A stretch of DNA of 38,232 bases from positions 1-38,232 of IMG/VR virus record IMGVR_UViG_3300023118_000017. One strand, 5' to 3'. Position 1 is the first letter of the stretch. The number at the start of each line of letters is the position of its first letter. The notes under the pieces were generated by a model. The model worked only from the letters and a program-made list of their open reading frames with translations. It had not been told where the DNA came from and did no database searches. This document shows, piece after piece, positions 16,357-20,259 of this stretch. This stretch comes from a virus. The translations under genes and the position numbers were made by a program.

Positions 16357-16471
16357 CCCCGTAAGCTTGGAAACAGCACCAGCAGAACCCGATGTGCCCA
16401 CCACTGTGTACACCGGCTACGGTCTAGGTGCCGCCGATGCCAGTAAATTACAGGCATCTGCCTCTGTAGCT
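16357..16471 (+). repeat. 115-bp repeat, copy A (attP-like, degenerate)
   Basis: It shares with 18573-18687, at a constant offset of 2216, the blocks CCCCGTAAGCTTGGAAACA, TGTGTACACC and a 42-bp block with one mismatch (16430-16471). The last block includes a 23-bp dyad (GATGCC, GTAA, TTAC, GGCATC) and the first 12 bases of the tRNA-like attP core. The -35 present in copy B is absent here. Confidence 0.8.
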
Positions 16472-17083: not shown

Positions 17084-17330
17084 CGAATACACGCCCACAA
17101 TGCAGCATTTGCGAGCCGCCTGGTTCAGGGGACGTTTCTACCCCGAACGGATGAGTGCAGAGTCGGATGCCGAAATAGATCGGTTCGTTGCCGAGATACG
17201 CCGCGACCAAGCCGAGAAAGACGCGGGGATCGCGGCACTTATCACGCACCACGGTTCGCCATGTCGCGCGGTCACAGATATCCGGCGGCAGTTCACCCCT
17301 TCACCCGAGACGGTTGACCGAGATGCCTGA
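17076..17330 (+). CDS. Small helical protein, paralogous to the 31430-31912 product
   Basis: An 84-residue protein with a GTG start, GGAGG six bases upstream, overlapping the previous gene. The centre reads EIRRDQAEKDAGIAALI and the end TPSPET. Both blocks recur in the early gene at 31430, with 36 bp (17191-17226 and 31581-31616) and 20 bp (17294-17313 and 31873-31892) identical in DNA. The product therefore looks like a shortened copy with the middle removed. Helical, charged, probably coiled coil. Function unknown. Confidence 0.65.
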   Translation: MADEYTPTMQHLRAAWFRGRFYPERMSAESDAEIDRFVAEIRRDQAEKDAGIAALITHHGSPCRAVTDIRRQFTPSPETVDRDA

Positions 17331-17496
17331 CACAATTACCCTCATGCCGGACAAGCCGAAAACCCCGCATTCGACCTTCCGCATCCCACTCGACCTCAAA
17401 GCCGCCGCCGCTGAGAAGGCTGCCGAGGAAGGCAAGACACTCACCGACGTGATCACCGAAGCGCTGGTGAAGTACACGAAGGCCAAACGCAAATAG
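17323..17496 (+). CDS. Ribbon-helix-helix DNA-binding protein
   Basis: A 57-residue protein whose ATG overlaps the previous stop. STFRIPLDLKAAAAEKAAEE forms the beta strand and first helix, and KTLTDVITEALVKYTKAKRK the second helix, a standard Arc/CopG-type fold that dimerises and binds palindromes through the strand. An internal Met (17344) is an alternative start. It closes the operon, is followed by a terminator, and may repress it through the two GGTGTATGTACACC dyads. Confidence 0.75.
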   Translation: MPDTITLMPDKPKTPHSTFRIPLDLKAAAAEKAAEEGKTLTDVITEALVKYTKAKRK

Positions 17497-18068: not shown

Positions 18069-18500
18069 CTACTTGGACTCGAAGCTCATCTCGAAGCCCT
18101 CGGCCGTGCACGCCTGGCCCACACGCTCGAGCTTCGACAAATACATGTCGTTCTCGGGGCTGTCGAAGACACCAAGCCCGCGAATACCAGTAGGACGGGC
18201 GTCAATAAACTCCACCAGATCGTCAATGCGGGTCTTCACGTCACCCTTGGCCTTCACGCTGATCGCTGAATAGTCCGTCGCAGCCTTATCCACCACCGAG
18301 TGCCACTGCTCGATCGTGGACGTCCCCGCCGACCTTGCGTCCCCAGCTTCCTTCAACCGCGTGAACGTGGCAGCGAAGTCACCACACGCGGCAAGGTTCA
18401 CATTCACTGGTGACGGTTTCGCCTTCGGTTCCGCTTTCGGAGCAGACGCACAACCGGTCAGGAGCAGAGCAACAACGGCAGCAACGGCTAGAAGCTTCAT
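18069..18500 (-). CDS. Lipoprotein, minus-strand moron
   Basis: A 143-residue protein starting KLLAVAAVVALLLTGC, a signal peptide with a lipobox (LLTGC) whose Cys16 would be lipidated. A Lys/Pro/Ala linker precedes a helical domain (about 34-143) with two further Cys (ACGDF and QACTAEG) that may form a disulfide. The ATG has no RBS and follows TAGGCT by seven bases. Surface lipoproteins made by prophages often block superinfection by the same phage, for example at the receptor or during DNA entry. This is the best superinfection-exclusion candidate in the window, by analogy only. Confidence 0.8.
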   Translation of the reverse strand: MKLLAVAAVVALLLTGCASAPKAEPKAKPSPVNVNLAACGDFAATFTRLKEAGDARSAGTSTIEQWHSVVDKAATDYSAISVKAKGDVKTRIDDLVEFIDARPTGIRGLGVFDSPENDMYLSKLERVGQACTAEGFEMSFESK

Positions 18501-18541
18501 GGGGGCGAGCCTAACCATCGCACCGTAGTGAGCGCGCCCCC
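18501..18541 (-). promoter_or_regulatory. Leaderless promoter of the lipoprotein gene, flanked by 7-bp arms
   Basis: On the minus strand GGGGGCG (18541-18535) and CGCCCCC (18507-18501) are inverted arms. TAGGCT (18513-18508) lies just before the right arm, which abuts the ATG. A CGGTG box stands seven bases before the -10. Confidence 0.6.
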
Positions 18542-18572
18542 AGTTCGAGTGATGAGGGGTGGGACACTCAGC

Positions 18573-18687
18573 CCCCGTAAGCTTGGAAACAAGCATCAGC
18601 CGGGGCTATGTGACAACCAGTGTGTACACCAGCCCTTGTCCCGATGCCGCCGATGCCAGTAAGTTACAGGCATCTGCCTCTGTAGCT
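18573..18687 (+). repeat. 115-bp repeat, copy B (attP arm)
   Basis: Partner of 16357-16471 at offset 2216. It contains the palindrome GTGTACAC, a 23-bp dyad (18653-18675) and the beginning of the tRNA-like core. It probably forms the left arm of attP. Confidence 0.8.
18636..18665 (+). promoter_or_regulatory. Promoter reading into the tRNA-like attP core
   Basis: TTGTCC (18636-18641), 18 bp, TAAGTT (18660-18665). The expected start is about 18672, four bases before the tRNA-like sequence. After integration it would drive the rebuilt host tRNA gene. Confidence 0.5.
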
Positions 18688-18726
18688 CAATGGAAGAGCA
18701 GTTCCGTCCTAAGGAAAGACAGAGGC
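18676..18726 (+). other. attP: attP core: 5' half of tRNA-Arg(CCU), closed as a tRNA-like hairpin
   Basis: The sequence reads as tRNA: acceptor GCCTCTG, D-arm GCTC/GAGC, anticodon stem GTTCC/GGAA with loop GTCCTAA (anticodon CCT at 18708-18710). The tRNA match ends near 18716; no variable or T arm follows. Instead CAGAGGC (18720-18726) pairs perfectly with the acceptor strand and is followed by TTTTCTT. The upstream position relative to int marks this as the attachment site; crossover probably falls in the anticodon region. Confidence 0.8.
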
Positions 18727-18805
18727 TTTTCTTGTCCCCAATTGTGGGCAATAATTGCCTGTAGATCGCTGATATTCCGGGCTTTTAGTAGGAACCGAAA
18801 CGCAC

Positions 18806-18861
18806 ACTGGCAAACATATGGTTTGCCAGTGGTTGTCACCACCTATGCCACCACCTATAGT
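18806..18861 (+). promoter_or_regulatory. Integrase promoter with palindrome and direct repeats
   Basis: TTGTCA (18833-18838), 17 bp, TATAGT (18856-18861), the best sigma-70-type promoter in the window. Directly upstream is a perfect 10-bp inverted repeat, ACTGGCAAAC and GTTTGCCAGT with a 5-nt centre (18806-18830). CACCACCTAT occurs twice, 12 bp apart, across the spacer. A second dyad, GGCAATAATTGCC, lies at 18747-18759. Confidence 0.7.
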
Positions 18862-18880
18862 TAGAGACGACCTAAGCAAC

Positions 18881-18915
18881 AAAAAGAGGGCCACCGGCTG
18901 GAACCAGTGACCCTC
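18881..18915 (-). terminator. Minus-strand terminator beyond int
   Basis: On the minus strand GAGGG/CCCTC with inner CAC/GTG and CTGG/CCAG pairs, followed by TTTTTG. It would end leftward transcripts that pass through int from the repressor-ImmA operon. On the plus strand it lies in the int leader, about 130 bp before the start codon. Confidence 0.65.
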
Positions 18916-19041
18916 GATCGATTACCTGAGAAAGCAGGCTCGACCCATGAATCATAAGCAGCCAGTACATAGAAGACCAATTCATATCGGCATCATCGGC
19001 GGGCAGTGGACCGCACACGACAGACAACCCAAGGAGCACCG

Positions 19042-20259
19042 ATGCCCCGCAAGCGCAGCACCGGTCAAGGTGGGCTCTACTTCGACGCCGCGCGCAAGCT
19101 GTGGATAGGTTCGTACGACAACGGCTTCACCCCTGAGGGCAAGCGGAAACAAGTCCGCGTAACCTCGAAGTCCCAATCTGTAGCGCGTGCGAAACTCGCG
19201 AAGCTCATCACCGAAGTCAATACTCACGACGCCCCACTCGGCAATCAGACGGTTGCCGAGTGGGGCGTTTTGTGGTTGGAGATGGTGAAGGCCAAGAAGC
19301 CGCAGACGTACCGCACCTATAACTCCATCTTGAAGACATGGGTTCTGCCACAGATCGGACGACGGAAAGTCAAAGACATCCGCCCGTCTGATCTGGCGAA
19401 GGTCTACGCCAACATCAAAGCCGCCGGACGCGCGTCATCTACTGCCCTCAAAGCGCACAACGTCATGTCGGCCATGTTCGAACAGGCGCGACTTGAGCGG
19501 ATCACCGACCGGAATGTGGCCGCCGACATCCGCCCACCCAAAGCGGCGAAGACCACCCGTGACAGCCTCAGCCCCGCGGAAACATTCAACGTCCTGGAAG
19601 TCGCTAAGCAAATACCGGACGGCTCCAAATGGCTGGTGTCCCTCTACGCGGGCATCCGCCAGGGGGAGCGGCTGGGCGCGACGATCGATTCCGTAGACCT
19701 CGAGCGGGGCACATTCACCGTCCGCTGGAACCTGGTCGAAGGCAACTACGAACACGGGTGCGCTGGCGACTGCGGCAAAAAGGCGGCCGGTCACTGTCCC
19801 CAGAAACGACTCGTGATCCCCGACGTAACCGACTACCGGGTACTCAAAGGGCGGCTCATGCTGGTCCCGCCGAAGTCGGGCGAAGAACGCACCTTCCCCA
19901 TCCCCGAAGGACTCCGATCCATCCTGCAAGACCAGATCGACCGGGCCAACTCACAACCGAACCCGCACGGACTGTTGTGGCCGGCAGAAGACGGCTCACC
20001 CATCCTCCCCAGATCCGATCAGGAACAGTGGAGAGCGCTACTCAGGGCGGCCGGAATCGACAGACCTGGGGCGACCACTCACTGGGCGAGACACACGGCC
20101 ATCTCCGACATGACAGCAGGTGGAACTGCAGACCGGGTGATTGGCGAAATGGTCGGACACAAGTCACCGGGTGTGACCGGCAGATACCAGCACGTTTCGT
20201 CACAGGATGCATCAGAGGCAATGGACAAGCTCGAGAAGAGACGTCAGCTCGAAAGCTGA
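19042..20259 (+). CDS. int: Tyrosine integrase
   Basis: A 405-residue protein from ATG 19042, which has AAGGAG at good spacing; an ATG at 19006 is in frame but unsupported. It has an N-terminal arm-binding AP2-like region (GLYFDAARKLWIGSYDNGF), a core-binding SAM-like domain (about 70-165) and a catalytic domain. The catalytic set is R206 (in GIRQGERLG), K278, H347 and R350 (HWARHT), H373 (GH) and the nucleophile Y382 (GRYQHV). A Cys/His insertion near C240, C244 and C252 is typical of actinobacterial integrases. It integrates the phage at tRNA-Arg(CCU). The end overlaps the convergent ImmA gene by 16 bp, and leftward immunity transcripts would be antisense to it. Confidence 0.95.
   Translation: MPRKRSTGQGGLYFDAARKLWIGSYDNGFTPEGKRKQVRVTSKSQSVARAKLAKLITEVNTHDAPLGNQTVAEWGVLWLEMVKAKKPQTYRTYNSILKTWVLPQIGRRKVKDIRPSDLAKVYANIKAAGRASSTALKAHNVMSAMFEQARLERITDRNVAADIRPPKAAKTTRDSLSPAETFNVLEVAKQIPDGSKWLVSLYAGIRQGERLGATIDSVDLERGTFTVRWNLVEGNYEHGCAGDCGKKAAGHCPQKRLVIPDVTDYRVLKGRLMLVPPKSGEERTFPIPEGLRSILQDQIDRANSQPNPHGLLWPAEDGSPILPRSDQEQWRALLRAAGIDRPGATTHWARHTAISDMTAGGTADRVIGEMVGHKSPGVTGRYQHVSSQDASEAMDKLEKRRQLES

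Follow-up and report, generated by a model that had tools for sequence, protein, structure and literature searches.

Background

The excerpts of the Islander survey considered here report a 5' tDNA fragment in 159 of 3919 islands and a 3' fragment in 3760 (PMC4383910). The corresponding parts of a study of ICEKp1 describe an integrated element in which the host tRNA promoter drives int, with stem-loops in the int leader as a potential attenuating terminator (PMC13023037). Both the rebuilding of a tRNA from its 5' side, as the minority solution, and terminators lying between tRNA and int are known already.

The DNA analysed here (the window) is a virus record 38,232 bases long. It has an attP that is uninterrupted and is followed, about 270 bp downstream, by a tyrosine integrase gene (int). 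Judged from its sequence, the phage is of the minority attP type, carrying a tRNA 5' half. When a tRNA is rebuilt from the 5' side, its promoter has to be replaced, and the strong host promoter that is left over points into the prophage. The attP of the window offers a compact possible solution by way of the tRNA's own fold, one that is missed by simple terminator scans and by a tRNA finder.

Results

Layout of attP and the target tRNA gene

The 5' half of tRNA-Arg(CCU) occupies positions 18676-18717 of the window (+ strand) and comprises the 5' acceptor strand GCCTCTG (18676-18682), the D arm, and the anticodon arm with CCT. It is joined by GA to CAGAGGC (18720-18726, +), by sequence and fold a phage-borne partner of the acceptor strand, and this arm is followed by TTTTCTT (18727-18733, +), a T-run for which the sequence and a comparison of T counts suggest the role of a terminator tail. 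The preliminary description had placed the half tRNA, its partner and the T-run at 18676-18733, and was right both in place and in detail. The likely 7-bp strand-exchange overlap is GTCCTAA in the anticodon loop (18706-18712), as indicated by the junctions in the lysogen G092 (see below) and by the stretch common to the attPs with 3' and 5' halves.

At least 119 stretches of contigs from GTDB species genomes contain the exact first 41 nt of the 5' half; among the matches listed nearly all are Microbacteriaceae by title, and on this sequence match the host family is Microbacteriaceae. The 119 loci listed include 115 intact tRNA-Arg(CCU) genes and four cut by contig ends. Among these matches, the ordinary tRNA-Arg(CCU) continuation follows in 115 of 115 readable stretches, the 3' acceptor strand is CAGGGGC in 112 of 115 (CAGGGGT in two, CACAGGC in one), and a -10 hexamer, most commonly TAGACT, TAAACT or TAGAGT, stands at -16 to -11.

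Junctions in a lysogen and a prophage remnant

G092 is a genome with a 65% identical integrase in which both prophage ends are present, on two contigs. Its attR consists of the phage leader, the phage 5' half and the host 3' half, which together make an intact tRNA (62 bits), and its attL consists of the host leader with the promoter region, the 5' half and the phage P' arm, followed by the co-oriented int. Up to GTCCTAAGGA the two junctions are the same in sequence, and beyond it they diverge; therefore, the exchange probably takes place in the anticodon loop. In G047, about 550 bp of a prophage persist as a remnant comprising attL, P' arm, P arm and attR. Here too attR is an intact tRNA, and at attL the half on the host side is decayed; G047 no longer has a related integrase, the matches found being only distant ones (best E 4.7e-6). 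The displaced host fragment is the 5' part, seen at attL of G092 and, decayed, at attL of G047.

The junctions in these two relatives show that an attP of this kind rebuilds the host tRNA from the 5' side. An adjoining tyrosine recombinase gene, identity with the host tRNA and a tRNA rebuilt in relatives all mark the site as a tRNA-targeting attP. Site selection, one of the explanations offered earlier, fully accounts for the 5' half, since that is the part of the host gene present in attP.

Leader, P' arm and integrase gene

The P arm contains a putative integrase arm-type site, TGTGTACACC (18621-18630, +), with similar repeats in L137 and L157. A weak candidate for the phage promoter of the rebuilt tRNA (TTGTCC, 18 nt, TAAGTT) lies at 18636-18665 (+). 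Its -10-like TAAGTT is at -16 to -11 relative to the start of the tRNA, a position taken mostly by TAGACT or TAAACT in the host gene, by TAAATT in L003-L005 (near copies of the window, counted with it as one lineage) and by TAGATA in L006. The candidate was not picked up in a promoter scan of the window. Across the relatives the promoter candidate is weak or unclear, and it is poorest in G092 and G047, for both of which the assumption of a fixed -10 match in the leader was abandoned.

An inverted repeat, GATGCC-N11-GGCATC (18652-18674), ends 1 nt 5' of the tRNA. Each of the four 5'-half lineages has such a repeat, ending 0-1 nt ahead of the tRNA, and its stem differs yet pairs in L006, G092 and G047 (in G047 with one mismatch). 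The four stems are GATGCC/GGCATC, CATCCC/GGGATG, AGATGCCC/GGGCATCT and GAT-C-CCAAT/ATTGG-T-ATC. Between the window and L006, two of the six pairs are altered on both sides; the covariation is supportive (25 of 500 shuffles) and comes from L006 against near-identical rows. A similar repeat, around AGTAAAT, is present in L157, a phage with a 3' half, and therefore the leader repeat does not serve the tRNA only. It may be an operator surrounding the promoter, or an RNA leader.

The P' arm has an inverted repeat, TGGCAAACATATGGTTTGCCA (18808-18828), at the same place in relatives, and an int promoter candidate, TTGTCA-17-TATAGT (18833-18861, +), that overlaps arm-type sites. Similar candidates occur in L004, L137, L157, L158, L159 and L206, and none of this kind was found in L174 or L006. 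Farther on, a strong hairpin in the int leader (18886-18915), terminator-like on the - strand, is present in relatives with altered sequence, and positions 18874-18935 (-) give a sub-threshold Rfam match to the antisense RNA ctRNA_pGA1 (23.9 bits, gathering score 45, E 0.073).

A conserved micro-ORF, beginning MNHKQPVHRRPIHIGIIGGQWTAHDR (18947-19108, +), lies between attP and int. Its HRRPxHxGVINGAxWSAHxR also occurs in L006, L137, L157 and G047 (L285), and it is retained even in the G047 remnant without int. It had no good match in annotated phages and could be a leader peptide or an excision factor. The tyrosine integrase gene spans 19006-20259 (+), with a probable start at ATG 19042; its product matches PF00589 (7.6e-18, at 281-399 of the integrase) and PHROG 1 (6.4e-57). 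The nearest integrase in annotated phages is that of Microbacterium phage vB_MoxS-R1 (42.7%), and no near matches were found in annotated phages at megablast level.

The region beside attP contains cargo. An 80-nt direct repeat of the P arm (85%) is located at 16392-16471 and 18608-18687, the first copy resembling the L004 allele and the second the L003/L005 allele, and the 2.1 kb separating the copies is missing at that place in L003-L005; therefore, the cargo seems to have entered by recombination between two attP alleles. It includes an Arc-like repressor gene (17188-17496, +; PHROG 6506, 1.4e-10). An ORF at 18069-18596 (-) has, on a reading of its sequence, a lipoprotein-like N terminus, and weakly matches Cor superinfection exclusion (E 0.003).

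Predicted fold of the half-tRNA element

The fold predicted for 18676-18726 is a T-armless tRNA-Arg(CCU), consisting of a closing stem, D arm and anticodon arm, with the T-run directly 3'. The MFE and centroid structures are identical and have exactly this shape (-20.9 kcal/mol, z -2.55), and four of 200 shuffles do equally well. The closing stem has 8 bp, because U8 pairs with A, and the RNA predicted from 18676 is 51 nt long plus the U-tract. The acceptor-like, D-arm and anticodon-arm helices of the preliminary description are thus borne out by both structures, with the length and stem as given here. The pair probability of the closing stem is 1.0 in the window attP, in a modelled attL with the host leader, in L006 and in G047, and for G092 (first 51 nt) it is 0; the closing stems of the window type, L006 and G047 amount to -12 to -13 kcal/mol.

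The Rfam tRNA model scores the element at 30.0 bits (gathering score 29), skipping the T arm, and ARAGORN called no tRNA in the whole window. The T arm, and with it the full cloverleaf of a functional tRNA, is missing. Intrinsic (rho-independent) terminators have a GC-rich stem base abutting a U-tract and, in the classical form, a short hairpin loop. The predicted fold likewise has a stable stem with a U-tract directly 3'; in place of a short hairpin loop, the closing stem encloses a multibranched loop of about 35 nt. Simple terminator scans of the window and relatives did not flag the half-tRNA site, because the scan admits loops of 3-8 only.

Arm and T-run compared with chance and with host genes

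To pass the arm test, a 7/7 partner (G-U allowed) had to occur within 20 nt and be followed by at least five T in 8 nt. Arm plus T-run at attP exceeds chance, since only 0.16% of 40,000 shuffles of the window's P' arm pass the test; the figure is 0.58% for L006. Pairing of 7/7 with G-U allowed is by itself reached by 2-4% of shuffles. Because such pairing is cheap, and host T stems reach it too, the T-run bears much of the weight. Over both strands of the window, arm plus T-run at the same span has 18 matches, some overlapping at one site; therefore, the shuffle figure is valid for the attP-specific place only.

Among the matches listed for the host genes described above, the 8 nt immediately past position 72 contain at most four T. 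When the 8-nt frame is shifted 0-3 nt downstream, 16 of the 115 listed genes reach five T and one reaches six, so that T-rich tails are possible slightly downstream in hosts (17 of 115). A second set comprised 130 distinct tRNA-Arg(CCU) genes, 128 of them with a readable tail; in these 128 the 8 nt that directly follow position 72 never reach five T, the maximum being four. The corresponding 8 nt after the phage arm contain six T in the window, six in L006 and five in G047. Going by these sequences, what is distinctive of the phage element with respect to host genes is the direct contact of the T-run with the stem. A scan of all collected loci (1,684,794 bases, overlaps counted repeatedly), to which the decayed attL of G047 is invisible, gave 190 tRNA 5' halves, and a 7/7 partner with at least five T in 8 nt occurred only at sites of the window type and the L006 type (14 redundant rows).

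Arm, T-run and attP type among relatives

In the window and L003-L005 the arm CAGAGGC is followed by TTTTCTTG; the arm is CAGGGGC in L006, followed by TTTTTTGC, and in G047, followed by TTTTCTGG. Thus, the CAG[A/G]GGC arm with a T-run is present in three of the four 5'-half lineages, namely the window group, L006 and the remnant G047. The 5'-half lysogen G092 has neither arm nor T-run, and the element is therefore not essential. The integrases of the window and L006 are only 56% identical, yet both attPs bear arm and T-run. The preliminary description had looked to relatives for conservation and compensatory changes in the arm. Conservation holds in these three lineages; the arm varies between them only by a one-sided U-A/U-G change, and the covariation of the cloverleaf is not significant (reached by 116 of 500 shuffles). 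Positions 27-43 were set aside as a compensatory pair, because A27 also occurs together with C43 or A43 in hosts, and the C43 of the phage may therefore be host-derived. An alternative cloverleaf in the P' arm of G092 was dropped (z -0.74).

The attPs of L157, L158, L159, L171, L174 and L206 carry the 3' half of the same tRNA, with the same overlap and related integrases, and none of these six has a T-run at the corresponding place. The prophage at L138 also carries the 3' half, with int at the far end. In L138 and L234-L236, related integrases stand at the opposite prophage end, beside a tRNA 3' half in opposite orientation. A 3' half of tRNA-Thr is carried by L162, L163, L164, L170 and vB_MoxS-R1.

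In an integrase tree of 21 rows, five of them with attP kind unknown, the 5'-half phages need three changes, at least two of which are forced by well-supported branches. In a 14-row tree such branches force only one change. The AU test on the latter, run after the first tree had been seen, rejects a single 5'-half clade at a modest p of 0.029. It appears from these sequences that related integrases at one anticodon-loop site switch which tRNA half the phage carries, which was unexpected. With both kinds in one clade, it can be tested which half a phage carries and which regulatory parts follow from that choice.

The pattern of a half tRNA without T arm was found in only four viral contigs, all known already, and, among 398 Microbacteriaceae genomes, in G092 and G117. 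In G117 (L155, G117:C7:852782-852813), the 5' half of tRNA-Arg(CCU) is followed by GGGTTGGGTT, perhaps a T-stem deletion. A clade-specific integrase search gave no additional contigs, and 12, 366 and 396 further genomes (partly overlapping draws) gave G092 again and otherwise distant relatives.

Discussion

Explanations of the arm and T-run

A transcription stop, one of the possibilities raised in the preliminary description, would appear to be the best fit for the CAGAGGC arm and the T-run, kept as they are in three of the four 5'-half lineages. The arm might instead be a relic of an ancestral attP with the 3' half or the whole tRNA, that lost its variable and T arms by deletion and in which the acceptor strand now lies idle. 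Such an origin would agree with the CAGGGGC of L006 and G047, which is letter-identical to the 3' strand of the host gene (in 112 of the 115 among the matches listed), with the presence of that acceptor strand in the same P' arm of close 3'-half relatives, and with the AU test, by which attPs did change type. It is, however, rather unlikely, considering that the T-run abuts the strand in all three arm-bearing lineages but in none of the six 3'-half attPs and none of the 128 host genes. Moreover, the window has A for the host G, making the stem stronger, and a useless strand should have decayed among lineages whose P' arms otherwise align poorly. Relic and terminator are compatible, since a relic put to use later may satisfy both.

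It is improbable that the arm belongs to a binding site of integrase or excisionase beside the core. It lies 8-14 nt from the overlap, and GACA directly past the core is common to the window, L006 and G092, but G092 and L157, with integrases 65-68% identical, are without CAGRGGC at that place, and the T-run would be left unexplained. The idea of a functional small RNA that mimics tRNA-Arg(CCU), whether as a decoy, as a substrate of RNase P or a synthetase, or in anti-defence, draws on the tRNA-like fold without T arm and on the CCU anticodon with U33 kept. These 5'-half features, however, are needed anyhow for rebuilding the host tRNA, the anticodon lies within the overlap and cannot vary, and there is neither CCA nor a discriminator base. 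We consider it very improbable, and the analysis gave nothing in support of a regulatory role for the small RNA resembling tRNA-Arg(CCU) that the preliminary description had suggested. As to chance, 7/7 pairing with G-U is not rare alone, and 18 matches of arm and T-run occur at this span on both strands of the window, overlaps included; but the place-specific probabilities are 0.0016 and 0.0058 in two lineages and the element is seen in a third, which makes a chance origin extremely improbable.

Proposed mechanism

The proposal as a whole, an attP with the 5' half of tRNA-Arg(CCU), a phage leader before it and a half-tRNA terminator behind it, is in our judgement fairly probable. Integration would swap strands in the anticodon loop. 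At attR, the phage leader and 5' half would be joined to the host 3' half, rebuilding the tRNA (a junction seen in G092), which would then be expressed from the phage leader promoter. At attL, the phage P' arm would come to follow the host's own tRNA promoter and 5' half, which read toward int, and the host half tRNA would pair with the phage CAGAGGC to form a T-armless cloverleaf whose GC-rich base abuts the U-tract; transcription from the orphan host promoter should therefore end before int, which would be served by its own promoter farther downstream. In the free phage, the same element would halt the phage's own tRNA-half promoter. The element would thus be an intrinsic terminator that works in one direction and shields int from a tRNA promoter, the phage's in attP and the host's in attL. 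It would matter most at attL in the lysogen, whereas the preliminary description had only attP in view. Because the host supplies one side of the stem, it would work with any host having this acceptor strand. The T-run is on the int side, and int follows on the same strand, about 270 bp downstream, with its own promoter candidate. The terminator may in this way guard the control of int, as supported by the separate int promoter candidate with arm-type sites and by the precedent of ICEKp1.

More tentatively, with the balance slightly against it, the attachment site may be regarded as a place of promoter-terminator exchange, in which the leader takes over the rebuilt tRNA and the arm with its U-tract makes an intrinsic terminator of the half tRNA joined to it, be it the phage's or the host's. 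The terminator of the lysogen would then be a hybrid of host and phage RNA, and the clade would have switched between a 3' half, with no terminator, and a 5' half, where one is useful.

Comparison with known systems

No account of a half tRNA serving as a terminator stem at attP or attL was found in searches of open-licence papers. As far as the excerpts of the Islander survey go, the locus resembles the 5'-fragment islands in its anticodon-centred crossover, in the rebuilding of the 5' part and in the host 5' fragment left opposite, and differs from them in the acceptor-pairing arm with T-run and in that phages with related integrases carry the other half (PMC4383910). In the parts of the ICEKp1 study considered, as here, the host tRNA promoter faces int with a potential terminator between them (PMC13023037). 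There, however, the tRNA is intact (integration at its 3' end), the promoter is used for int and the stem-loops are in the int leader, whereas here the half tRNA itself would form the terminator stem. In KplE1 intS, the int promoter likewise overlaps the arm-type sites of attL and tRNA and int are co-oriented; a half-tRNA terminator is not described in the sections considered (PMC2951348).

The available portion of the report on tRNA-dependent lysogeny also concerns actinobacterial phages with attB in a host tRNA gene, whose function must be secured (PMC10865867). There, a separate complete phage tRNA complements the loss; here, the window contains no tRNA gene, and the host tRNA is rebuilt at the junction, as seen in relatives. 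Finally, in contrast to known intrinsic terminators, the stem-loop of this element is a multibranched T-armless cloverleaf, half of which possibly comes from the host genome.
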